In this document: one piece after another, positions 7,821-25,425 of the stretch
How positions within the stretch are numbered: position 1 is the first letter of the stretch
Layout of the letters: every line of letters starts with the position of its first letter
Origin: a virus
Length of the DNA: 26,397 nucleotides
Virus record (IMG/VR): IMGVR_UViG_3300010368_000090
Span: 1 to 26,397 of that record
Direction: 5' to 3' (one strand)
The notes under the pieces: generated by a model
Seen by the model: only the letters and a program-made list of their open reading frames with translations
The model's database searches: none
Told to the model about the DNA's origin: nothing
Position numbers and translations under genes: made by a program

Positions 7821-10800
7821 ATGAATATAAATAACAACTTTATTGGGTCCAGAATGAACAAGAGTCTGGACGAAAGACTTATACCTCAGGGTGATTATAT
7901 AGACGCATTAAACATTAGAATATCTTCTGATGAAGACGGAGAATCAGGCTCTGTTGAGAATGCAAAAGGTAACGAATTAGTTACCTCTTTAACTTATAAT
8001 TCATCCCCACTTGTTGATGCGACTTGTATTGGAGCTTTTGAAGATGGCGAGCAAGAAACTATCTACTGGTTCGTAACAAGCCCTACGGTGGATATGATAG
8101 TATCGTACAACTTTAATAATTCAACATTATTATACCACGTTATTAGTACGGATGTTTTAAACTTTTCTACTGACTTCAGGATTGAATCTATAAACCTTAT
8201 AGATGATTTATTGTTTTTTACAGACAATTTAAACCCTCCAAGAAAAATAAATACTAAGAGGTCTTATCCAAGACCTATAACAGGTCAGGATCAAATAACT
8301 GAGGATGATATATCTGTTATTGTTAAGCCACCTATTGAAGCCCCTGGAGTTGGGTTAGTAAAAACATCTTCAAGTCAGAATTTTATTGAGGATAAGTTCG
8401 CTAGGTTTTCTTATAGATATAAATACAAAGACGGAGAATACTCTGCCTTGTCTGAATTCTCTGACATTGCTTTTTTACCAGGTGTTTTTAGACTAGACTT
8501 TGGTAATTATGATATGACTGGAATGAGGAACAGGTTTAACTCTGCTAACGTTTCATTTAACACAGGATCAAAACATGTAATTGGAATTGATGTTTGTTTT
8601 AAACTTTCAAACTCAAACGTAGTTCATGTGATTGAGAAGTTTGATAAATCAGAAGAAGGATGGGGCAACAATGAAGTTAAGAGTGTACAGTTTAGCAATC
8701 AAAAAATATTCACAACACTTCCGGAATCTGAACTATTAAGACTATTTGACAATGTACCTAAGGTAGCTAAGGAGCAAACCTTGATGGGTAATAGAATTAT
8801 GTACGGAAACTATACTGATGGATACGACATAGACACTAATATTAATTACAGTCTAAGTCTTGTTTCTGAGCTTATAGGTGACTCTGAACTTGAAACAACA
8901 AACTTTTACGATCCAGCATCTAAAGCAACAGGTTTTACGGTAGATTTTGATGGCGTAGAACTGGTACAGGGGCTTACTATTTTTATAGATCTAAACATAT
9001 TACACGCCGAGTTTGATGGTGATGCAGGTTATCCAATGACCCCACAGAATGACATACAACAGTCTTGGTCATTCCAACTCCCAAGGGATTATACATCTGT
9101 TCTAGATTTAGCAACTAGCACCGAGTGGAATGAGGCTATCCAATTAACAGACTTATGGACTAATACTGCTGACGGTAACAGTATGACTGATGTTTTTTTC
9201 ACCAACATAATAGCCGCTAATGGGTGGAGAAAAGTACAGGGGGCTACTTATAGAGTAGATCCACCTGCGTTCGTGCTTAACAAGGAAATAGAGACTACTC
9301 GATCTGGAACTGTGATTACATTTAATATACCAGGGGTACAATATGAAATAGATCCGCAGACAGAGCCTCCAACAGCATCGGCTTTTGAGTTTTTCCAAAC
9401 ATCAGTTACAGTTGCAGGTTTTATTGATGACACTACATCAAAAAGTTTACACAGTAATAGAGATTACGAGGTAGCTATAGAGTACCTTGATGAGTATGAG
9501 AGAGCATCTACGGCTCTTGTTAGTACAGCGAACAGTATATTTGTAGGCGCTGAATTATCTACTTTTCAGAATATAATAAGGGTAACCCTAAACAGTCTTG
9601 CTCCAAGCTGGGCTAGTAGGTATAGGTTTGTTTTAAAGCCTAGTAAGGGTGATTACGAGACCATATACTCTAGGTTCTACTATCAAAGTATAAACGATGG
9701 CGGTGCTTGGTGGGTTAGGCTTGAAGGAGATAACCAAACAAAGGCCAAGGTTGGGGATACATTAATAGTCAAGTCTGATTCAAGTGGAGCTACCCCAAGC
9801 CTAACTGAAACTAAAGTGCTAGATATACAGGCTCTTTCTTATAATTCTGAATACGTAAGCGGAGATCATCCAGCTGGATTGTATATGAAATTAAGGGCTA
9901 CTAATTACTCAATATCTAGCGACCCTGAAAGTGAACTTATAGACAGAAGAACTAATTCTGAAAGTAGTAGTCAGAGTGGAGCGGCATTATGGATGTCTGA
10001 ATTAGTTGACCCAGAGGTCCCTGGTGTTTATCAAAAGATAGATATACCAGCTGGATCAAAAATCACGATTTCTGTAAGATCCTTCAGGTTTGGTTCTTAC
10101 AGTTTTGACTACTATTTTACTGGGACATTTACGGCTCAAAATGATTACGAAGATATAAATCAGTTTATAAACGGTGAGAACGTAAACTTCACACCTCCAA
10201 ACACAAACAGCGGTATGGGTAGCCCTGCTGACGGAGATGAAAACAGGGTTAAGTGGTTCTCTGCCGTGGGTGACTCCAATGATTTAAGACGTGGGATAGG
10301 TGTACCTATTGAACCAGGATACAACGGCACTGTTAGAAATTATGACGAAGACTCTCCTAGCGTAGAAAGAGAACTTCAAATAAAATATTATGAGAATCCA
10401 TCTGATCCTACACAGAGTTGGTTATACCAATCACCAATTAGCGGCGGTTCGACGGGCCATAAGGTTAGGAATGAGCTTTCAGTCCAGATTGAAAGACCTG
10501 GTGACATACTTGTTTTTGAGACTAAACCAGAGGAAATAGCTGGGGAGATATACTACCAAAGCAGTAAGAGTTATCCTATACAGTCAATAAAAAATAGTAA
10601 TATAGGTCGATACGGGGTGACTGTTTCGGGTAACGAGACAAACCAACAAACTATACAATATACAACACCAGCAACACCAGGTGTTGAAAGTGAAGTAAGA
10701 ACTACCACGATAACACCAGGTGGGGCATCTTTTGTATTTGAGGCTGTAGTAGGAAGTGTTAGCCTATTAACAATACCTTTATCACCCTCAAACATAACTA

Positions 10801-13800
10801 TACAATTACTCAACTCTCCAACATACACTGGAGACGTGCCTACCCTTGGTCACTACGGAAACGTATCTAACCAAACCGCTACAGGGCCAGCAGTTATTGA
10901 TTTAGAATTGTATAACTGTTTCTCATTTGGAAATGGAGTTGAGAGTTTTAAAATAAATGATGGGTTTGCAACACCAGGTTTTAGGATAGGGGCTCGTACT
11001 ACGGCTGTTTCTTTAGAGGATTACAAAGAGGTTAACAGATACTTTGATATAACATATAGTGGTGTATATAACCAACAAACGAACATAAACAAGCTAAATG
11101 AGTTCAATTTAGCACTAGCAAATTACAAGAGCTTAGAGGCTTCATTTGGACCTATAAACAAGCTACATGGAAGACAGACAGATATATTAGTTCTTCAAGA
11201 AGACAAAATATCATATGTTTTAACTGGGAAGAACTTATTATCTGATGCCGCAGCTGGAGGGGCTATAACATCTATACCTGAAGTTTTAGGTACACAGATA
11301 GCTAGAACTGAAGAGATCGGAATAAGTAATGACACTGCGAGCTTTGCTACGGAATCTGGGGATGTATTCTTTACGGACTCAAAGAGAGGAATGGTATTAA
11401 ACCTTAAGGGTGGATCATACCAAGGAGAGTCGTTGAATATTATCTCTACATTAGGCATGAGGTCTTGGTTCAGGGATGAATTTTCTACTGGTTTTAATAA
11501 AATAAAACTTGGTGGATTTGATCCATACATGAATGAGTATGTACTAACTTTTGGTAATTATGAAAGACCACTACCACCTATATCAGTAGGGTGTGGCACA
11601 GAATTATCTTACCAAGATAGATCTACACCTGTGACATTTAATGTACAGCTAAATGATTCTATAGGAAATGTAAATACTGACTATAACTTTACCTCTGGGG
11701 CTGGTAATATTACCATTGTTTATAACGGAAGTGAAGTTACCAATGCAGACGTAACTGGAAGCGGTCAATTATCTTTCAACAAAGACATAATAGGACTCAA
11801 CGAATGTACTGTTACTGTAACACCAAGTGAAGAATCTACTTTTACTATTAAAGCAAACTGTATAGCAGATAAATCACTTACTATTGTTCATATTGTCAAG
11901 AATACAGACGAAATGAATGAGAAGATTATACACCATGAGTACCAATGGACTAACGGAACATATTCTTCTCTAGTATACCAACAAGAGATTACTTTCGGCG
12001 ATGGTCCGGTATCATATTATAGAAGATCAACTGGTATAGCATCACAGGGTGAGTTCCCTGTTGATGGATCTACAATAAGACTAAAGTATGCCCCTCAAAT
12101 TGGCGACACAGCATCATGGGAGGCAGATAGATTCCAGTACCATTTATCTGATATACTCTATACTGAGTCTGAGATAGACTTATTAAAACCTCTATTAACT
12201 AATATTCCTGAGGTACCGTCATCTAACCCTGTAAATGTTCAGGGTGAATTTACTTACAGTAATCCTACGTCAAAACAATATTTGTATTTAGTGTATGATT
12301 ATGTATCCCCAGTTATAGAGTGTGGTGTAGCTGTAAATACTACAGCCGCAAATACAGGGGCTTATGAGATGAGATCAGATTTAGGAACGGACATAGGTTT
12401 CGTAACGGTTGATTTTGAGGGTTACAACACACCGACTAGACTTCAGTTAGTCTATGATGGCAGTATTGTAGCAGATTCACTATTTATTGGTGATGTATTA
12501 CCAGACGCTACTCAAGAGGGACTGATAACATCTTTATCAACGCTTGATACATATAACTATAACGGGTATACTTACGACCTATCTAACTCAGAATCGGTAA
12601 CTTATACATCAGCAGATATAGCTGTATCAGATGGGTCTGAATTAAGATCTAGTGGAGACGGTACGGGGCAAACAGGTGTTGTCGCAAACTTCCCTTCGCC
12701 AACGGCAAAAGCCTCCGATGGAAGCGTAAAATTAAAGTTCTTAAAATCAACAGCTCTACCTACAGAAATGACAATAAGAGTCATAACGGCAGACGGTACT
12801 AATAACTGGAGCATGAACGGTGTTACTTGTCCTTCAAGAGCAGAAGTTCCTGACGATCAATTTGAGTGTACAAATGCGCCATTAGTAACGCCAGCTGCGG
12901 CAGGTTTCTGGAACTTGAATTCAGATATTGGCGTGGACACAGGTGCTGTTGTAATAACTATGAGACCTAAAAACGTTGAAGATACATTAGGTTCAGTTGT
13001 TGAGTATAATAGCACAACATACAACACATTTGTTAGTGATTTTGACGGAACACACAAGTCGGATACTGATGGTAACTACACATGGGTAGGTGCTACAATT
13101 CCTTCAAGCCCACAGGTTAGGGATGAGTACACATTTGAAAATGGTTCATTTGTAGATACAGGGAACGATGTTAGTCAAGCGGTAGCTGCTGGAGATGTTT
13201 CAACATCAAGCTTCCCGGTTGGATCTACTACAAGACCTAATTACACTATAGTAATACCAAAAATTGAAACTAACATAGAGGCTCTAAACTTTAAGGTATT
13301 CAGTGATACAGAAGCAGAAATGATAGTTAGATGTCCAAGATTGCTAAATTCAGCTCAAATAGACGGTCCGTATGAATTTCCTAACACTGCAATAAACCCA
13401 CCAGGGGTAGTGTTTAGAAACTTCTTTACTGTTTACAAGAGTGGCATTGGTACTTCATTACCTCTTTACGTTCCAATTTCAGATGACCCTATATTACATT
13501 GCGAGCAATTATTTTTAGACACAAATGGTATACAAACACTTCAGAAGGGGTATTACTATACAAACGATATAGAGACACCTTCTGAGTTTACTAATCAAGA
13601 CCAATATAAGATTATATATGTAGATGATTGGGGGACAGCTTATTACTACACACCAGAGGAAATATCTGAAAACCAATGCAACAATGCCACTTTAGTTAGT
13701 CTAAATGATTCTGGATATTTTGACGCTAATATTGAGTTATCATCTAGTACTGGTGCTGTAGTTATACATTTTAATGCTGGATCATACATACCTGATGGTA

Positions 13801-15326
13801 TATTAGCTACGTATAATAATAATACTTATAATATATTAACATCTCAGAACATTCAATTCTATAGTTCACAAGTTCCTTACGGAAGAACAGAAAACTTTGG
13901 GACAGGTTTACCTACATATGTGGGGGCTCCCGACAATTTTAGTGGTTCGCCTTATCAAAATGTGGAAGAGTATTCACTTCAAAATGGATCCTATCAAGCA
14001 TTAGGTACTACAAGAACTATAACTGTTGCATCGACACAAAATGACACTGCAAATCAAGATGTATTTACTTTAGTTGTACCTAAGACATCCTTATTTCCTA
14101 GTTCTTTAAACTTACAAATTTTCGCTCCATTACCACAAACGGCATTTTCATATAATATATCATGTCCAACAGCACTACCATCCTTCAGCTCTACGGTTGC
14201 ACAAACTGATACTAATTGCAATGTGCCTACTGAAACCTATTACTTTGCAAGAAATGCAACCTATAGTGGGGCTGGTTCTGGATCATTTACAACTGATACT
14301 AACACTATACCAAAAGTCGGTAACTTTGTATATGAGGATAGTAACGCTGCAACACCATTAAACGACAATGCCTTATCACAGTATTATATAATTGGTCAAA
14401 GTACATATATTGAAGTGAGATACGGAATGGTCATTGCTACTGGAGCTTGTGTACAACAAGAGAATCCAAATATAGGTGTTAATACATATATTTACATATA
14501 TTTTGATGCCTCAGGGTCCATGAGTACTACTCTTGGAGCCCTTCAAACCATGCGTACTGGAGCTTTAAAATCTACACTTCAAGATTTATACGCAACAGGT
14601 GGAGTAGAAGGAGCACCAGACTTTAATACAGACCCCGCAACTAACGGTAGTAATGAGTATGATAATAAGGTTTCTATTGTTTATAATCCAAACCCTCGTC
14701 AAGACTTTTGGGCAAATGAACGAACCCTCGCTGCTCTTTCTGACATTGATGTTAATAATTTCTTAACCACAAACACACATACCCCGTTTCCTGCAGACGC
14801 AAGTAACGTGATAGTTATGGTTTTCCAAGATGAGGCTTCAGACCCTCAGAATCCAAATAATATTTATCACGATTCTAGAGTAACTGGTACTTTTGACGAA
14901 GTAAACGATTTGAGAACACAAACTTACGACACAGACCTTGCTGATTTAAGGTCAAGAGTTGCTGCTTTAAATTCTTCTAATCCAGGTTTTTATAGGGGTG
15001 TTGTTTTTCATGTACAAGATAGTCCAACAGGAAGTCCAGTTTACCCATTCAAGGCGTTTTTGGAGGCTGTTGAATCCGGTGCAGGTAACTACACGGGAGT
15101 AAATGGTTTATCTGACTTGATGGGAGAAGACTCACCTACATTTGTGTTTGAGTATGACATTCGAGATAGCACAGGCAATGACGCTATTACGCCATTAAAA
15201 CCAAACTCTGCGACTGATACATTTGACCAATGGCAATATTACTATCTATATTGGATAACAAACTCACTTAACACGCTAGGTTTTACTCCAAATGGTATAG
15301 CTTGGCCAGCAATAATAGACGACTAA
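7821..15326 (+). CDS. Giant tail stabilisation/'muzzle' protein with adhesin-like repeats and a C-terminal vWA domain
   Basis: 2501 residues, among the largest of its kind. Residues 1-160 (NNNFIGSRMNKSLDERLIPQ onwards) match the style of the stabilisation protein (P22 gp10-like) of crAss-like phages. That core seems to run to about residue 1240 (GMRSWFRDEF near 1213, then FDPYMNEYVLTFG), with propeller- and Ig-like beta sequence. Downstream come a Cys-containing Ig-like segment (about 1250-1380) and three divergent repeats each opening with Cys and closing with Cys-Pro (1501-1672, 1683-1840, 1953-2117). Two short Cys-bounded modules flank the third repeat. A von Willebrand A domain occupies about 2215-2501, with the MIDAS motif DASGS at 2229-2233 and a second acidic site at D2337 after a hydrophobic strand (VIVMVFQDE). 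The core probably closes the portal channel; the C-terminal string probably binds the host surface or fibres. There is no signal peptide. Confidence 0.82.
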   Translation: MNINNNFIGSRMNKSLDERLIPQGDYIDALNIRISSDEDGESGSVENAKGNELVTSLTYNSSPLVDATCIGAFEDGEQETIYWFVTSPTVDMIVSYNFNNSTLLYHVISTDVLNFSTDFRIESINLIDDLLFFTDNLNPPRKINTKRSYPRPITGQDQITEDDISVIVKPPIEAPGVGLVKTSSSQNFIEDKFARFSYRYKYKDGEYSALSEFSDIAFLPGVFRLDFGNYDMTGMRNRFNSANVSFNTGSKHVIGIDVCFKLSNSNVVHVIEKFDKSEEGWGNNEVKSVQFSNQKIFTTLPESELLRLFDNVPKVAKEQTLMGNRIMYGNYTDGYDIDTNINYSLSLVSELIGDSELETTNFYDPASKATGFTVDFDGVELVQGLTIFIDLNILHAEFDGDAGYPMTPQNDIQQSWSFQLPRDYTSVLDLATSTEWNEAIQLTDLWTNTADGNSMTDVFFTNIIAANGWRKVQGATYRVDPPAFVLNKEIETTRSGTVITFNIPGVQYEIDPQTEPPTASAFEFFQTSVTVAGFIDDTTSKSLHSNRDYEVAIEYLDEYERASTALVSTANSIFVGAELSTFQNIIRVTLNSLAPSWASRYRFVLKPSKGDYETIYSRFYYQSINDGGAWWVRLEGDNQTKAKVGDTLIVKSDSSGATPSLTETKVLDIQALSYNSEYVSGDHPAGLYMKLRATNYSISSDPESELIDRRTNSESSSQSGAALWMSELVDPEVPGVYQKIDIPAGSKITISVRSFRFGSYSFDYYFTGTFTAQNDYEDINQFINGENVNFTPPNTNSGMGSPADGDENRVKWFSAVGDSNDLRRGIGVPIEPGYNGTVRNYDEDSPSVERELQIKYYENPSDPTQSWLYQSPISGGSTGHKVRNELSVQIERPGDILVFETKPEEIAGEIYYQSSKSYPIQSIKNSNIGRYGVTVSGNETNQQTIQYTTPATPGVESEVRTTTITPGGASFVFEAVVGSVSLLTIPLSPSNITIQLLNSPTYTGDVPTLGHYGNVSNQTATGPAVIDLELYNCFSFGNGVESFKINDGFATPGFRIGARTTAVSLEDYKEVNRYFDITYSGVYNQQTNINKLNEFNLALANYKSLEASFGPINKLHGRQTDILVLQEDKISYVLTGKNLLSDAAAGGAITSIPEVLGTQIARTEEIGISNDTASFATESGDVFFTDSKRGMVLNLKGGSYQGESLNIISTLGMRSWFRDEFSTGFNKIKLGGFDPYMNEYVLTFGNYERPLPPISVGCGTELSYQDRSTPVTFNVQLNDSIGNVNTDYNFTSGAGNITIVYNGSEVTNADVTGSGQLSFNKDIIGLNECTVTVTPSEESTFTIKANCIADKSLTIVHIVKNTDEMNEKIIHHEYQWTNGTYSSLVYQQEITFGDGPVSYYRRSTGIASQGEFPVDGSTIRLKYAPQIGDTASWEADRFQYHLSDILYTESEIDLLKPLLTNIPEVPSSNPVNVQGEFTYSNPTSKQYLYLVYDYVSPVIECGVAVNTTAANTGAYEMRSDLGTDIGFVTVDFEGYNTPTRLQLVYDGSIVADSLFIGDVLPDATQEGLITSLSTLDTYNYNGYTYDLSNSESVTYTSADIAVSDGSELRSSGDGTGQTGVVANFPSPTAKASDGSVKLKFLKSTALPTEMTIRVITADGTNNWSMNGVTCPSRAEVPDDQFECTNAPLVTPAAAGFWNLNSDIGVDTGAVVITMRPKNVEDTLGSVVEYNSTTYNTFVSDFDGTHKSDTDGNYTWVGATIPSSPQVRDEYTFENGSFVDTGNDVSQAVAAGDVSTSSFPVGSTTRPNYTIVIPKIETNIEALNFKVFSDTEAEMIVRCPRLLNSAQIDGPYEFPNTAINPPGVVFRNFFTVYKSGIGTSLPLYVPISDDPILHCEQLFLDTNGIQTLQKGYYYTNDIETPSEFTNQDQYKIIYVDDWGTAYYYTPEEISENQCNNATLVSLNDSGYFDANIELSSSTGAVVIHFNAGSYIPDGILATYNNNTYNILTSQNIQFYSSQVPYGRTENFGTGLPTYVGAPDNFSGSPYQNVEEYSLQNGSYQALGTTRTITVASTQNDTANQDVFTLVVPKTSLFPSSLNLQIFAPLPQTAFSYNISCPTALPSFSSTVAQTDTNCNVPTETYYFARNATYSGAGSGSFTTDTNTIPKVGNFVYEDSNAATPLNDNALSQYYIIGQSTYIEVRYGMVIATGACVQQENPNIGVNTYIYIYFDASGSMSTTLGALQTMRTGALKSTLQDLYATGGVEGAPDFNTDPATNGSNEYDNKVSIVYNPNPRQDFWANERTLAALSDIDVNNFLTTNTHTPFPADASNVIVMVFQDEASDPQNPNNIYHDSRVTGTFDEVNDLRTQTYDTDLADLRSRVAALNSSNPGFYRGVVFHVQDSPTGSPVYPFKAFLEAVESGAGNYTGVNGLSDLMGEDSPTFVFEYDIRDSTGNDAITPLKPNSATDTFDQWQYYYLYWITNSLNTLGFTPNGIAWPAIIDD
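12321..12836 (+). repeat. Protein repeat unit 1 in the giant tail protein
   Basis: Codes residues 1501-1672. It opens with Cys (CGVAVNTTAANTGAY) and closes with MNGVTCPS. Shared landmarks with units 2 and 3 are a Gly-x-Val-Val/Thr-Val strand after TGxxx, a V-Y-(D/N) step, and a final (K/R)-x-F-x-(S/K)...-CP strand. Similarity is visible at protein level only. Confidence 0.6.
12867..13340 (+). repeat. Protein repeat unit 2 in the giant tail protein
   Basis: Codes residues 1683-1840. It opens with CTNAPLVTPAAAGFWNLNSD, contains DTGAVVITM, VVEYNSTTYNTF, a Y-T-F-E-N-G-S-F block and YTIVIPKIETNIEALNFKVF, and closes with MIVRCPR. It aligns clearly with unit 3. Confidence 0.72.
13677..14171 (+). 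repeat. Protein repeat unit 3 in the giant tail protein
   Basis: Codes residues 1953-2117. It opens with CNNATLVSLNDSGYFDANIE, contains STGAVVIHF, ATYNNNTYNIL, EYSLQNGSYQ and FTLVVPKTSLFPSSLNLQIF, and closes with YNISCPT. Landmarks and spacing match unit 2, so the two arose by duplication and diverged. Confidence 0.72.
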
Positions 15327-16098: not shown

Positions 16099-16106
16099 TA
16101 TATTTG
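16099..16106 (+). promoter_or_regulatory. Bacteroidota-type -7 promoter element (TATATTTG) with near-leaderless start
   Basis: TATATTTG matches TAnnTTTG and lies in the 21-base gap after the tail gene. The ATG of the acetyltransferase is only 6 bases further on. Because transcripts usually begin a few bases after this element, the mRNA would have a leader of about 0-4 bases. A TTG inside the element (16104) is in frame but is unlikely to be the start. Confidence 0.6.
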
Positions 16107-16112
16107 CAACTA

Positions 16113-16517
16113 ATGGAAGTTAGAAATTTAATACATTCCGATTACGATGAAATACTCGTTAAGTGGTGGAAAGACTGGCGATGGGTAGCCCCATCTAGAG
16201 ATTTTCTTCCAGATAATGGTAATGGAGGCCTTATAGTTTATGATGGAGATATTCCAGTTTGCGCTGGATACATGTACGTAACTAACTCAAAAACAGGGCT
16301 TTGTGAATTTATAGTTTCAAATTTTCATTACAAGGACAAGAAAAAAAGAAAGGAAGCGATTAGTTTATTGATTTACACAATAGACAAAGTACTTAAAAAT
16401 GTTGGGTGTAAGTACTCATACTCAGTACTTAAAAATAAATCACTAATCAACATATATAAAGAAGTTGGATACCAGGAAGGGTCAAAGAACTGTACAGAGA
16501 TGGTAAAAATATTATAA
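16113..16517 (+). CDS. GNAT-family acetyltransferase-like protein
   Basis: 134 residues from ATG 16113. This start gives the usual GNAT opening (MEVRNLIHSDYDEILVKWW); the in-frame TTG at 16104 would add only three residues and lies inside the promoter. Conserved-looking blocks include WWKDWRWVAPSRDFLPDNG (18-36), GGLIVYDGDIPVCAGYMY (38-55), the strand EFIVSNFHYKDKKKRKEA (65-82) in the place of the acetyl-CoA pyrophosphate loop, and IYKEVGY (114-120) near the end. The loop is divergent: K-D-K-K-K-R replaces the usual Q/R-x-x-G-x-G/A, so catalysis is not certain. Similar small GNAT genes sit beside tail genes in many Bacteroidota phages; their substrate is unknown, with virion, host or cell-envelope targets all possible. 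It has its own promoter inside the virion operon, which suggests timing or dosage different from its neighbours. Confidence 0.75.
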   Translation: MEVRNLIHSDYDEILVKWWKDWRWVAPSRDFLPDNGNGGLIVYDGDIPVCAGYMYVTNSKTGLCEFIVSNFHYKDKKKRKEAISLLIYTIDKVLKNVGCKYSYSVLKNKSLINIYKEVGYQEGSKNCTEMVKIL

Positions 16518-18918: not shown

Positions 18919-21900
18919 ATGAACGAAGAAGCAATAAAAGCACTGTATGAGTCAGTATCTGTAGACTATGAGGTGGGGACTATAGATGAATTCAAGGCTT
19001 ACTTGTCTGATGATTACAAGCGTAACCAGTTTTTTGAAAATGTAATCAAACCGGAGTATGATGTCGAAAGTATAGATGAGTTTGAGTCCGCTTATGGTTT
19101 AAAAAAAAAAGTCGATTCTACTTTGGAAACGGAAGATATGGTTGGTACTACAAAAACGGGAACAACTCCTGGATCTTTGGCTTCTTCAGAAACACCACCC
19201 GTTAGCATACCGGTAAAAGAAGAAAAACTTCTAATCGATGGATTTGATCCGAGTACATTAACAGCACCTGTAGAGGATGGGACAATTCCTGACCCATTAG
19301 AGACAGAAACTAAAGTCTTAACTGAGCTAGGAGTTGAGCCAGTAGAGTTTAAGACATGGAAAGAAGAAAACCTAAGGCCGGAATCAAAATCATATAAGTT
19401 TTTTAAAGAACTACTCCTGAATGATGAGGGTCAACAATATGAGGATGAACAGAAAATCCAGAAACAGGTTACGGCTTACTTAGCTCAGAAATTAAACAAA
19501 AATCTAGAAGCAATAGATGCAGCAGATGAAGAGGCTCAAAAAGTTTTAATAGAACAGAACAGGAAAGATGCGCAGACTATTGTAAATAACCTAAAGGCAT
19601 ACAAGAAAGAGGCTGTAATTGACGACCTAGAGAGCAGAAAAAACCTACTAAGACGTCAAAGAGCTGGTGGCGTTAAAATGGCCGCTTCAACAGGTTTTGA
19701 AATGATAAAAGCCGCTGGTAATGCTGCCGCAAATTTCGCAATGGGTACAGCAGCAGCGCTGTTCACAGAGGCTGACGCTTTGTTGAACGCAACTGGTGCA
19801 GACAAAAAAGGAGCCCTCCTTGGCATCGCTGAAATGTTCCTAGATTCAGCGGAACACTACAGTTTAGATGCAGGTGAAACACAGAGATCCGCATTTGTAC
19901 AGGGTAAAGAAGTAATAAGCAATGGTAAAACATATATAGTATCTGATGATGGCGTTATTTACGATGAAGAAACACACATAAGAGTTGATGATATACTACC
20001 TGAGACAGAGGTAGCAAGCATACAAGATAAGGCGTCAAAAATTGAGGGAGACAGTACAAGCTTTGATATGGGATCTGGATTAACTGGACTTACAAGTACC
20101 GTAGTAAATTTATTTGGATTAATACGAGGAGGTAAGAAGCTTCAAAAATCTCTTGGAGTAAACCCTAAAGTTGGTATGGGGCTAATGTCTTTTGCCAGTA
20201 CAGTTTCGTCCAGTGTAGAATCTGTTAAGGACGATCTTATGGCTCAGGGAGTTAGTGAAAAAGAGGCCACAAATAAAGCCCTTGTTTTTGGTAGCGCCAT
20301 AGCAACACTAGACGGAGTTTTCTCTGCACTAGCAGGTAGTAATGAGAAATTACTTGGATCCACGAAAGTAGTAAAAGACTTATTAATAGACCTAGCAAAG
20401 AAAAAAGGTAAAGAATTTTCCGCTCAACAACTTAAAAGAAAAGCAGGAGATCTTATTAAAGAGAACGCAAAGGAACTGTTTATAGAGGAAATACCTGTTC
20501 TTTTATCTGAAAGAGGTATAAACAACGTTATAAACTATAGCGTAGGAATGGACGTAAGAGCTGGAGTTGAAGACTTAAAAAGAGCTGACTTCATGGAAAC
20601 CGCTTTCTTGACATTAGGGGCAACTACAGGAATGGGTAGTAAGAGATTACTTACATCTAATCAAAGAAACGATGTTGTTAGATACTTATCTAATAATATA
20701 AAAGATGTGGACGTAGTAAGCGCTAAGCTAGTGACAGAAGGTTTACTTACTCAGCAAGAAGCTGATAATGCCGTAAGTGAGGTAAAATCAATGCAATATG
20801 CGGAAACTAAAGTATCAGGTGCCGTTAAGACCACTGAGAATATGATAGAGGCCGCAGCCTTAATAGAGAAGAAAGAAAAGTTAATCTCAGAGAGAGAAAA
20901 TACAGACCCATCGTTAAGGGCTGATATAGATAAAAGAATAAACTCAATTGATCAGCAACTTGAACAACTCAAGCAGAAGGACGATAAAGATGTTCAGGAT
21001 ATTATTAACGGAGAGAAGGACGGAGAGATAAAAATAGAGGTAACTAGAGAGGAAGCTGTTGAGGCTTTGAAAGCTGAAAACGAAGCTAATGAAAGACTAG
21101 GACTTCCTACTATTATAGAGTCCGAAGCAAACATTCTTAAGACACAAGAGAAACTAATAAAAGAGAAACAAGATGCCATTCAAAAGCAAGAAACAAGAGA
21201 AGTACCTGATGCTAAACCAGCCGAAGGTGTACAAGAAGTGGAAACAGAGGTACGGGTTACTCCTGAGCAAGAAACAGAAGTAGAGAGTCCAATAAAGGAT
21301 AATCTACAAGAAAACGAAACTATTGTTCAAACTAGAAAAGATAGTAAAGGTCGAGTATTTACTACCACTAAACAAGAATCCGTAAGAGAACGTGATGGAT
21401 TAAAAACTACTAAGTTTAAGTTTAACAGAGACGATAAATCAACCGACCAAAGAAACGATGCTTTTGCTCCTGAGGACGTAGCATTAGCAGGAACTAACTT
21501 TGAGATTAACCCTGAAGATAGACTAGACCTTCAAGAAGGTGAGACAGCTACTTATGAGATAAGTGAAATAAGAGAGGGCGATACAGGAGTAGGCGCTTCT
21601 GTAAAGTTTACAACAATTGATGCTGATGGGAACCAAATAGGTAGCTTTCAAGGTGATGTGACATTGGTTGAAAAGCCTGATACAAAGAAAGATGAGAGTG
21701 AACAAACAGTATCTGAAATAGATGAAGTAACAGTTACTGAAGAGAAAGTAGTACCAGCTGGTAAGAGGTTGTTTAACAACCCAAACCCTGAAACTACAGA
21801 GATATCTAAGAAGTACAAGAAAGAAAGAAATAATGAAACACCTGAGGGTGAACCAATAACATCTATTGATACTGAGAACTCTAGAGATATTGCTGATGTG

Positions 21901-24900
21901 TATGAGTCACTAGAAGACTCGCCTAATGATCCAATGGTTCAGGAGGCATACTCATTAATGGCAGATGAAACAGCGGCACAACACCAAGATATTATTAACG
22001 CTGGATACGAGGTTGAGATCTGGAACGGAGAGGGTGAGCCTTACGCAAACGCTCAAGAAATGATTGACGATGTTCGTGACAATAAGCACATGTGGATATT
22101 TTCAACCGAGGCCGGGTTTGGGGATACTGCAATCACAGAAGAACAAAGACAACAAAATAAATTACTACAAGATTCTGGCTTCAAGGACAAGAACGGCAAC
22201 ACTTTACTATACAATGACTTGTTTAGATTTGTGCATGACTTCTTTGGACACACAGAGAGAGGTAATGGTTTCGGACCTGTTGGTGAAGAGAACGCATGGG
22301 ACGTACACTCAAGAATGTATACACCATTAGCTAGGAGAGCTATGACCACTGAGACAAGGGGTCAGAATAGCTGGGTTAACTTTGGACCTCAAATGAGGAA
22401 TGATAAAGGGGAGTTAATCAAGGAAGGTGAAGAGGGATATATTATTCCAAAAGAGAGAGCGTTTGCTCCTCAAAAAATGGCGCTTATGCCAGAACTATAC
22501 TCTATGCTTGAGAATGAAGTTGAGGCAGGTGTATCTAAGCTATCACAAGAGTTTAAAGGCAAGCCATCTATGGAAGAGGTTTACAATAAAGCTGAAGATT
22601 TAGGTATTACACAAAAAGAAGCTAGAGAGTATCTGAATAAAATAGGATACACAGAACAAGAGATAAAAGATTTTGTTTTTAAGAGAGAAGATATGTCTGT
22701 AAAGAGAGATGTCGCTGGCGATAAAAATATATTTGTAAAAGGTAAGAATATTACGTTAAACTTCTTAGACACTATAAAAAGAAAGTACGCCTCTGCAAAG
22801 TCATACATGCCTAAGAATGCGTTCATAGCAAAAGAAACTAAGAATGCACATATACAGGCTGAAGTTAAGGTAGCAGAGAGAATGGCTAGGAGGCTTAACA
22901 AAATGCTTAAGGGTCAACCTGATAGTGTGTATAATGAGGTAAACAAATTAATGAGAGGTGAACAGGCTGACCTACCAATAAAGATATCTCTAATAGCTAC
23001 AGCTATGAGGAATCATATTGACTCACTTTCAGAGAAACTTGTAATGAGTGGTGCGGTAGAATCTGAAGCTGCTGCGGCTAATATAATGAGTAATATTGGC
23101 GAATATATGAACAGATCATATAGACTATTCGATGATAAAAATTATGCCGACAATATATCAGAAGAGGTAATACTTGAGGCTAAAGAATTCCTAAAGGCGC
23201 AGGAATTAAATAGAATCACAAAGGAAGCGGCTAAAGAAAATATAACCCCACAAGAATATGTTAATAAACAAGAGGGAGGTAAAAACTTTACACTTGAACA
23301 GTACGTTAATGCTACAGCAGATCAAGCGGTTAGAAGTATAATTAAAAAGGATGAGGCCAATGCGTTTGTTAGTGCTGTAGTAAACGAAGCTAAAAAAGAC
23401 ACAAAGATACTTAAGGAGAGAAAAGAAATACCAGCAGAAATAAGAGCCCTTATGGGTGAGTACACAGATGCAGCGTACAATTATGTAATGAGCGTAGGTA
23501 AAATAAAGGCGATTATTGAGACACAGAAATACCTAGACAAACTTAAAGACATAGGTGATGGGGTATTCCTATTTAAAGAGGGTGATCGTAGAAGACCTGA
23601 TGGGTATACTAAAATAGCATCTGAAACAAACAAAACATTGGAGCCATTGAACGGATACTACGCACCCAAGGAGCTTGTTGATCAGATGAACTCAGGACCA
23701 CTTAACTTTAGAGGATTTGGAGAGGACTTTCAAAAGGCTTTTGAGGTATATATGAAAGCAGTTGGTGCTGTGAAGTACACAAAGACAATATTGTCTGTAG
23801 GTACTCACGTAAAAAACGTGCTAGGTAATGCTTACTTTATGGCTCAGAACGGATACTTTAACCCAAAAGATTACAATGAGGCATATAAAGTACTCATAAA
23901 TGAATTTAGGAACCTTGATAACGAGCAGTTAAATAAGAAGCTGGACGAGTACATAAAGGCAGGTATTATAAACCAAGGTGTTAGCCTAAGAGAGGTTCAA
24001 GGATTACTTGAAGGTGAACAGGATTTTGATGTCAAAATAGAGAAGAGAACAGCTAAGAGATCCGAGAACATAATAAAAAAGGGAGCTAAATATATAGGAA
24101 AAAAAGCAGAAGAAGCTTACCAAGCTGAGGATGATTTGTTTAAGATAGTTGCATATGAGAATGAAAAAAGAGACTACGCAAAGATAGAGTTCGACAAGGA
24201 TTACAATGATCTTTCAGAAAAAGAAAAAGCTAAAGTCGACAGTAAGGTTGCAGAGATAGTGAAAAACATACTACCAAACTACTCTAGGTTAGGGAATATA
24301 TCTAAGAAACTTAGAGCATTACCAGTTGCTACCTTTATATCGTTTCAATTAGAGGCATATAGAACAGCATATAACTCATTTGATTTAGCTCTAAAAGAGG
24401 TTAAATCTGAAAACCCTAGAGAGCGAAAAAAGGGAGCTAAGAGATTAACAAGTTTAATTGGTTTCCAGGGGCTAAAGTATGCTGTCCTTGGCATGTTAGG
24501 AAACGCACTTTTAGGAGATGATGATGAAGATGAAGAAGAAAGTAAATTACAAGAAGTTTTTGAAGGAGCAATTGGGATTTCAAAACCAAAAACAGGCGTG
24601 ATGGATGCAAGACCTTATTTACCTTTCTGGTCACAAAACTCAGATATATTAATAACAAAGGCTGGTAATGGCAAGTTCTCATATATAGACATGAGCGCAT
24701 CTGACCCTTACGGAGGATTAGCTAAAGTAGTTAGGGCAGCTCAAAGAGGAGATAATGTAAAAGACGCTGTTTTAGACGCAGCTACAGAACTTTTAAATCC
24801 AATATTCAGCCCCGATATACTTGCAGGAGCCCTTAATACAATAATACAAAATAGAGATATATATGGGAAAAAAGTATTTGAAGAAACAGACTCTGCTGAT

Positions 24901-25425
24901 GAGGCTGCAATTAAAATAATAGATGTGTTATATAAAACATTTGAGCCAGGGACATTGACATCACTAAGAAAAATAGCTGGAATGGACACCCCAGGTAAGG
25001 CGTACACAGACTATGGAAGGTATGTCACTAAAATGATGAAGACAAAAAACGGTCTTTTGGATGCACTTGGACAACTAACAGGGTTTAAGAACAACGAAGT
25101 TGATATTGAAATGCAGATGAACTATAAACTAGGAGATCTAAAGGAGAAGATGAAGCCTATTGAGATTAAAAAGTATATAGCAAAAAAGAACATAGAAACT
25201 ACTGGGGACGCTAGAGAATATGTTAAACTTATAAAAAGCGAGCACGCTGATAAAGATGAGGTTTACCAAGAGGCTAGTAAGTTAGTTAAATCTGCAATGA
25301 AATTTGGATTAACTATAGAAAAAATATACCCAATGTTAAAGAGCAAGTTTCCAAAAGGTGATGATGCAGATATTATCTTCTTGTATGATCAAATAGCCAG
25401 TCAGATTATACAAAAAGATGAGTAA
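18919..25425 (+). CDS. Giant polyvalent cargo protein, presumed ejected with DNA
   Basis: 2168 residues. The N-terminus holds two copies of a short motif, YEVGTIDEF (17-25) and YDVESIDEF (47-55). Residues about 249-292, 385-404, 416-430 and 455-475 are Gly/Ala-rich hydrophobic or amphipathic segments that could enter membranes. A charged, coiled region spans about 640-780. Residues about 975-1196 form a highly conserved-looking domain with V-H-D-F-F-G-H (1105-1111), GEENAW (1122-1127) and TTETRGQ (1143-1149). Residues about 1580-2050 (TKTILSVGTHVKNVLGN, RALPVATFISFQLEAYRT, TFEPGTLTSLRKIAG) resemble modules of phage 'polyvalent' proteins, possibly the LPD38 type, followed by a helical tail. 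No RNA polymerase signature is present. The gene carries a run of ten A at codons 61-64. It ends overlapping the opposing gene by 20 bases. Role inferred: channel formation plus one or more enzymes delivered at infection. Confidence 0.66.
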   Translation: MNEEAIKALYESVSVDYEVGTIDEFKAYLSDDYKRNQFFENVIKPEYDVESIDEFESAYGLKKKVDSTLETEDMVGTTKTGTTPGSLASSETPPVSIPVKEEKLLIDGFDPSTLTAPVEDGTIPDPLETETKVLTELGVEPVEFKTWKEENLRPESKSYKFFKELLLNDEGQQYEDEQKIQKQVTAYLAQKLNKNLEAIDAADEEAQKVLIEQNRKDAQTIVNNLKAYKKEAVIDDLESRKNLLRRQRAGGVKMAASTGFEMIKAAGNAAANFAMGTAAALFTEADALLNATGADKKGALLGIAEMFLDSAEHYSLDAGETQRSAFVQGKEVISNGKTYIVSDDGVIYDEETHIRVDDILPETEVASIQDKASKIEGDSTSFDMGSGLTGLTSTVVNLFGLIRGGKKLQKSLGVNPKVGMGLMSFASTVSSSVESVKDDLMAQGVSEKEATNKALVFGSAIATLDGVFSALAGSNEKLLGSTKVVKDLLIDLAKKKGKEFSAQQLKRKAGDLIKENAKELFIEEIPVLLSERGINNVINYSVGMDVRAGVEDLKRADFMETAFLTLGATTGMGSKRLLTSNQRNDVVRYLSNNIKDVDVVSAKLVTEGLLTQQEADNAVSEVKSMQYAETKVSGAVKTTENMIEAAALIEKKEKLISERENTDPSLRADIDKRINSIDQQLEQLKQKDDKDVQDIINGEKDGEIKIEVTREEAVEALKAENEANERLGLPTIIESEANILKTQEKLIKEKQDAIQKQETREVPDAKPAEGVQEVETEVRVTPEQETEVESPIKDNLQENETIVQTRKDSKGRVFTTTKQESVRERDGLKTTKFKFNRDDKSTDQRNDAFAPEDVALAGTNFEINPEDRLDLQEGETATYEISEIREGDTGVGASVKFTTIDADGNQIGSFQGDVTLVEKPDTKKDESEQTVSEIDEVTVTEEKVVPAGKRLFNNPNPETTEISKKYKKERNNETPEGEPITSIDTENSRDIADVYESLEDSPNDPMVQEAYSLMADETAAQHQDIINAGYEVEIWNGEGEPYANAQEMIDDVRDNKHMWIFSTEAGFGDTAITEEQRQQNKLLQDSGFKDKNGNTLLYNDLFRFVHDFFGHTERGNGFGPVGEENAWDVHSRMYTPLARRAMTTETRGQNSWVNFGPQMRNDKGELIKEGEEGYIIPKERAFAPQKMALMPELYSMLENEVEAGVSKLSQEFKGKPSMEEVYNKAEDLGITQKEAREYLNKIGYTEQEIKDFVFKREDMSVKRDVAGDKNIFVKGKNITLNFLDTIKRKYASAKSYMPKNAFIAKETKNAHIQAEVKVAERMARRLNKMLKGQPDSVYNEVNKLMRGEQADLPIKISLIATAMRNHIDSLSEKLVMSGAVESEAAAANIMSNIGEYMNRSYRLFDDKNYADNISEEVILEAKEFLKAQELNRITKEAAKENITPQEYVNKQEGGKNFTLEQYVNATADQAVRSIIKKDEANAFVSAVVNEAKKDTKILKERKEIPAEIRALMGEYTDAAYNYVMSVGKIKAIIETQKYLDKLKDIGDGVFLFKEGDRRRPDGYTKIASETNKTLEPLNGYYAPKELVDQMNSGPLNFRGFGEDFQKAFEVYMKAVGAVKYTKTILSVGTHVKNVLGNAYFMAQNGYFNPKDYNEAYKVLINEFRNLDNEQLNKKLDEYIKAGIINQGVSLREVQGLLEGEQDFDVKIEKRTAKRSENIIKKGAKYIGKKAEEAYQAEDDLFKIVAYENEKRDYAKIEFDKDYNDLSEKEKAKVDSKVAEIVKNILPNYSRLGNISKKLRALPVATFISFQLEAYRTAYNSFDLALKEVKSENPRERKKGAKRLTSLIGFQGLKYAVLGMLGNALLGDDDEDEEESKLQEVFEGAIGISKPKTGVMDARPYLPFWSQNSDILITKAGNGKFSYIDMSASDPYGGLAKVVRAAQRGDNVKDAVLDAATELLNPIFSPDILAGALNTIIQNRDIYGKKVFEETDSADEAAIKIIDVLYKTFEPGTLTSLRKIAGMDTPGKAYTDYGRYVTKMMKTKNGLLDALGQLTGFKNNEVDIEMQMNYKLGDLKEKMKPIEIKKYIAKKNIETTGDAREYVKLIKSEHADKDEVYQEASKLVKSAMKFGLTIEKIYPMLKSKFPKGDDADIIFLYDQIASQIIQKDE

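Follow-up and report, generated by a model that had tools for sequence, protein, structure and literature searches.

What does a histidine motif reminiscent of iron-dependent oxygenases do inside a giant protein of phage virion type? The question is raised by a 26,397-base virus record (IMGVR_UViG_3300010368_000090), analysed here over its whole length, which we call the window. It encodes P0001, a protein of 2168 amino acids (aa) with the motif H-D-x-x-G-H. An initial annotation had assigned the surrounding region to an aromatic-amino-acid-hydroxylase-like, or else degenerate, domain delivered with the phage DNA. We found that the motif belongs to a discrete and conserved domain of enzyme-like character, in which a His pair and acids are invariant; as had been proposed, it is located inside a protein of the virion/ejection type. 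Membership in the aromatic amino acid hydroxylases is not supported, as we found nothing positive for it beyond the motif. We tentatively favour a different reading, in which the domain is a putative metal-dependent enzyme used at phage entry, perhaps on a metabolite of the S-adenosylmethionine (SAM) cycle or of sulfur metabolism.

The residues lie where the annotation had put them: residue 975 begins at position 21841, V-H-D-F-F-G-H starts at residue 1105 (H1106, H1111), GEENAW (E1123, E1124) and TTETRGQ (E1145) follow, and the His-His and His-Glu spacings are 5 and 34. Since P0001 has only 11 His residues and shuffling its sequence 20,000 times produced H[DE]xxGH in 13 cases, the motif is unlikely to be due to chance, and its conservation makes this firm. 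H1106, D1107, H1111, F1118, G1122 and E1123 are invariant over 155 loci, which contradicts the idea of a degenerate domain. Part of this conservation arises by construction, because peptides with VHD or GEE were used in two of the three main scans; H1111 was in no scan peptide. The same residues were recovered by the first scan, whose peptides lacked VHD and GH, and by an unfiltered tblastn search of isolate phages. E1145, named by the annotation as the Glu of the triad, is indeed present 34 residues on but is not strictly conserved: it is replaced by G, S, T or Q in nine of the 155 relatives (L032-L038, L101, L117), which keep H1106, H1111 and E1123. As E1123 is found at every locus, the alignment makes it the better candidate for a third ligand. 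The nine relatives are natural variants bearing on the role of E1145.

The AlphaFold2 model of residues 943-1209 is confident (mean pLDDT 96.2, pTM 0.92). The His pair, E1123 (178-189 in model numbering) and E1145 are each placed on a helix, and a beta-alpha-beta segment precedes the helix with the HD. Searches of the PDB by sequence, with the single protein and with a 99-sequence profile, returned nothing relevant, and Pfam, NCBIfam and PHROGs searches with the domain matched only PHROGs of unknown function; neither Pfam nor NCBIfam has a model for the family. No published description of it was found in the literature that we searched.

After an initial 40 loci, the scans reached at least 565 relatives from viral contigs, and cellular genomes contributed 51 loci. 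Among isolate phages, the domain is present in about 200 records, mostly of Mycobacterium phages, where it is a 433-aa stand-alone protein, and it also occurs within giant proteins of cyanophages. The cultured Microcystis phage Mel-JY33 is among the carriers of the domain. Stand-alone phage copies include those of Mycobacterium phage Alice (gp99), Streptomyces phage Dagobah and Bacillus phage P59. The P59 copy (L166:2258-2836) is a divergent homologue with HDVFAH and lies in a long terminal repeat rich in small genes. The family of Alice gp99 (PHROG 3170) matches residues 990-1161 of P0001 at E 2e-17, with HDFFGH, GE and ETKGQNS kept, and differs in being a separate protein where the P0001 domain is embedded in a giant polyprotein.

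A search of BFVD with the domain model led to small phage proteins, including Q0E607 of phage LKA1. This protein belongs to PHROG 7806, encoded in the early region of LKA1, phi15 and more than 100 further phages, mainly T7-like, of Pseudomonas; phi15 gp02 is the second gene of its genome and LKA1 ORF7 lies at 3.7 kb. The domain profile aligns with this compact family (about 160-190 aa) at E 1.7e-6 and prob 90 in hhalign, defining a homologous core that shares H-D-x-x-H, an E and a D with P0001, whereas the motif (HDxGH) is one residue shorter and the gene is an early one rather than part of a polyprotein. Conserved in the compact family are N-x-x-F-R-x-x-H-D-x-x-H, an invariant E98, D128-T and FPxDQ, and the Asp of HDxxH is found in 15 of 16 homologues, with Asn in the other. 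Because the compact form is homologous to the domain with HDxxGH, and Gordonia phage Yvonnetastic retains the longer form, His spacing evidently varies within the superfamily. The compact-family model (pLDDT 96.7) contains just two strands, both short, and has no fold match in the PDB. The domain is thus a portable module, found in giant phage polyproteins, stand-alone phage genes, early genes of T7-like phages and, rarely, chromosomal genes. In a plasmid search only four records matched, none of them predicted to be mobilizable.

The setting of P0001 is that of a virion protein. Portal, capsid and tail-type genes of the window match PHROGs, and P0001 is encoded downstream of them. For the capsid-type structural protein, identities of 49-67% were found with Flavobacterium, Maribacter and Manatee Spring podoviruses, and Cellulophaga phages were also matched. 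The C-terminal part of P0001 matches PHROG 22602 'virion structural protein' (E 4e-28) and is about 26% identical to gp127 of Cellulophaga phage phi13:2, a 1990-aa protein annotated as virion structural and likewise the last in its structural block. As no Flavobacterium or Cellulophaga record was among the tblastn matches of the domain in isolate phages, the domain appears to have been inserted on the N-terminal side of the shared structural region. No Pfam domain was matched in P0001, polyvalent-protein domains included, and DUF3293, discussed below, was not found in it.

Chromosomal copies are rare: a census found the domain in 2 of 398 Pseudomonadota and 2 of 396 Actinomycetota genomes, three of these four being seed genomes already known. 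At all eight loci of one actinobacterial operon type (L129, L132-L134, L136, L137, L145, L155), genes for a SufS-type cysteine desulfurase and a relative of cystathionine gamma-synthase/lyase are nearby, in most cases directly downstream of the domain gene. The same loci contain a homocysteine S-methyltransferase (seven of eight), a methyltransferase (five of eight) and a paralogue of S-adenosylhomocysteine hydrolase (SAHH) together with an MFS transporter (three of eight). Two of the three genomes also contain a second, canonical SAHH copy with scores of 361 and 504 bits, compared with about 100 bits for the paralogue. In five proteobacterial genomes (Enterovibrio, two Ruegeria, Pelagibius and BD1-7), an SAHH-like gene of 351-362 aa and DUF3293 adjoin the domain in varying order, and in BD1-7 (L120) DUF3293 is fused to it. 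The domain and DUF3293 are also joined in one phage polypeptide at L110, L022 and L067 and, more weakly, at L047 and L051. When 20 genomes were searched, DUF3293 adjoined or was fused with the domain at seven of eight DUF3293 sites; it is named nowhere in the literature searched. Because the operons share ancestry, these counts are not independent. The actinobacterial and proteobacterial contexts differ, yet both converge on SAHH-type and sulfur or methyl genes.

From the conservation, the confident model, the modular distribution, the gene neighbourhoods and the DUF3293 association observed here, we infer metal binding, catalysis, a substrate, ejection and a benefit to the phage, as follows. 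Residues ~985-1192 would form an independent portable enzyme-like domain with H1106, H1111 and E1123 as probable metal ligands; D1107, usually together with E1145 and Q1149, would have a catalytic or second-shell role. Since it is placed inside a virion-type polyprotein, the domain is probably delivered into the cell together with the DNA, and it would then act ahead of phage gene expression. Other phages may reach comparable timing through a relative encoded as an early gene, and entry timing would thus be the theme common to both arrangements. A small molecule is the most likely target. The best lead comes from the chromosomal homologues, whose operons point to the sphere of SAM, S-adenosylhomocysteine and sulfur amino acids. 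Altered host methylation or restriction, or a changed nucleotide or sulfur pool, could favour infection. The full form of this proposal is rather unlikely to hold in every part: an undescribed metalloenzyme family with no detectable solved relative, pre-packed or made early, whose substrate is a metabolite of the SAM cycle or of sulfur metabolism and which resets host methylation or sulfur chemistry at entry.

Several points weigh against the proposed entry enzyme. Searches of the PDB with both the domain and the compact model, using Foldseek and VIA, gave nothing significant, with zincin, globin and TPH2 matches at noise level, so that no analogy to a solved fold backs catalysis. The metal site of the His pair and E1123 is probable as judged from conservation, not from spatial positions in the model. 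Ejection of P0001 with the DNA is probable by analogy, from synteny and the annotation of one relative. The chromosomal operons are not numerous, some are orthologues of one another, and they may serve a function other than that of the phage domain. Moreover, in a second actinobacterial type, of about 14 genomes, the neighbours are not sulfur genes: an N6-methylase-like gene is near the domain, with a kinase and a UvrD helicase in most, and this type (L140:3595-10131, L141:3514-10118) is perhaps a defence island.

Among other explanations, a divergent hydroxylase-like Fe(II) oxygenase using H1106, H1111 and E1145 was the one originally put forward. It is suggested by the identical H-[DE]-x-x-G-H spacing and a Glu on a later helix, and a loose hhalign path is collinear across 173 columns. 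Yet PF00351 gave no match on the domain at E<=1, and a PDB search with the 99-sequence family profile returned none of the hydroxylase chains at E<=10. Compared by hhalign with a hydroxylase profile built from 20 bacterial sequences collected from genomes, the domain profile scored 31.2 (E 0.001 for a single comparison). When the six motif columns of the hydroxylase were kept and the rest shuffled, the mean was 30.6 and 64 of 200 controls reached the observed score; when the motif was masked, the score was 13.4 versus 14.0 for shuffled columns, i.e. background. These controls trace the profile match wholly to the six-residue motif, which is thus the whole of the sequence evidence for a hydroxylase. 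The predicted structure, which the annotation had proposed to compare with hydroxylase structures, speaks for this reading in placing TPH2 at ranks 1 and 3 of the Foldseek PDB list, but does so at E 2.1-3.4 and TM 0.15-0.19 (E 2.1, TM 0.15 and prob 0.02 for the top match), and in a second fold comparison no TPH2 chain reached Z>=2. Homologues carry HDxxH as well as HDxxGH, a change of spacing absent from the hydroxylases aligned here, and no similarity to hydroxylases was seen in the compact family. E1145 is lost in nine relatives. We consider this explanation very improbable; in the literature searched, no paper linked such hydroxylases to both phage and virion.

A module of the ejected protein that has no enzymatic role, serves in binding or structure and is kept for folding or partner binding would agree with the position of the domain inside a structural protein, the lack of a fold match and the fact that no activity is known, but clusters of invariant His, Asp, Glu, Gln and Lys residues are what one expects of an active site, and stand-alone chromosomal copies occur in metabolic operons, which makes this unlikely. 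The same operons do not suggest a peptidase, and a zincin-like metallopeptidase with HDxxH or HDxxGH in place of HExxH, processing the polyprotein or a host protein, appears decidedly unlikely. Three weak VIA matches point to it: one is the minigluzincin selecase (Z 2.6, 88 residues, 4.7 A), and the other two (Z 2.8 and 2.1) are entries of a M. tuberculosis regulator, which we take to be PrpR with its IrrE-like zincin region. However, Z<3 is at noise level, Asp stands for the catalytic Glu throughout the 155 loci and in nearly all compact homologues, and the compact homologue, with its two short strands, has no zincin match. In favour of a peptidase, metallopeptidases, some of them with HExxxH, are the commonest domain of polyvalent proteins (PMC5512222). 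Most improbable of all appears a metal-dependent phosphohydrolase or nuclease like the HD-domain proteins, acting on nucleotides. HD phosphohydrolases have an HD followed by GH and E, which the compact form, with HDxGH and a later acid, resembles, and N6-methylase and UvrD neighbours in one actinobacterial type would fit; but no HD family is among the Pfam matches, no HD fold is among the PDB matches, and the beta-alpha-beta segment before the HD helix speaks against it.

Table. Coordinates of P0001, of the domain and its residues in the window, and of chromosomal gene clusters (locus:positions).
Feature	Position	Strand	Basis or remark
P0001, domain-carrying large phage protein, 2168 aa	18919..25425	+	open reading frame and translation; final gene of structural block
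Domain as modelled, residues 943-1209	21745..22545	+	AlphaFold2 with 99 homologues (alignment A2)
H1106-D-F-F-G-H1111	22234..22251	+	on predicted helix 156-170 (model numbering; DSSP)
E1123, GE of GEENAW, invariant acid, 12 residues past H1111	22285..22287	+	155/155
H1130	22306..22308	+	154/155 in family; replaced in compact family
E1145-T-R-G-Q1149	22351..22365	+	E1145 146/155, Q1149 154/155; on predicted helix 194-213
Q1185-K1186, near-invariant QK after helical core	22471..22476	+	K1186 99/99, Q1185 96/99 (alignment A2)
C-terminal virion-structural-like region, residues 1388-2147	23080..25359	+	also in relatives without HDxxGH domain
Actinobacterial clusters of domain, SufS-like desulfurase, cystathionine synthase/lyase and homocysteine S-methyltransferase, some with SAHH paralogue and MFS	L129:5914-10088, L136:5830-9962, L145:5908-10860		
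Domain/DUF3293/SAHH-like operons	L114:5863-8227, L123:5863-8235, L131:5842-8227, L108:4781-6720, L120:4777-7128		

Two further genes of the window were noted. A 2501-aa structural-type protein (7821-15326) contains, in its C-terminal part, IYFDASGSMS, a von Willebrand A (MIDAS)-like motif. Inside the structural block, a GNAT-like open reading frame of 137 aa (16104-16517) has a syntenic gene in MW202828 annotated as acetyltransferase; its listed TTG start is doubtful, and an ATG lies a few codons downstream.

If the proposed entry enzyme is real, a single family of entry-phase enzymes, unnamed in Pfam and NCBIfam, is common to phages of Bacteroidota, Actinomycetota, Bacillota and Pseudomonadota. 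The chromosomal operons would define a testable substrate sphere, and the small early genes of LKA1 and phi15 would offer an easy experimental handle on the buried domain. Should the SAM/sulfur reading be wrong, a widespread uncharacterised family would still stand where the phage first meets its host.

Compared with known systems, the domain has in common with PF00351, the aromatic amino acid hydroxylases, the H-[DE]-x-x-G-H motif followed by a Glu. It differs in that its profile resembles theirs in the motif only, its model has no significant fold match, the Glu is variable and the His spacing varies among homologues. For the proposed SAM logic, a precedent is found in phage T3, whose early enzyme lowers host SAM, its link to restriction having later been disputed (PMC8406200). 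The T3 SAM lyase (PMC8406200, PMC7877911) is offered purely as an analogy of an early enzyme that changes the host SAM pool; no relation of sequence or fold is claimed. Polyvalent proteins (Iyer et al. 2017, PMC5512222) differ from our case in that the domain matches no LPD model in Pfam and P0001 no Pfam polyvalent domain. Like P0001, they are very large, are encoded beside structural genes and have a potentially enzymatic extra module, and relatives (L110, P0003) carry LPD38, ART-like or DUF3293 domains.

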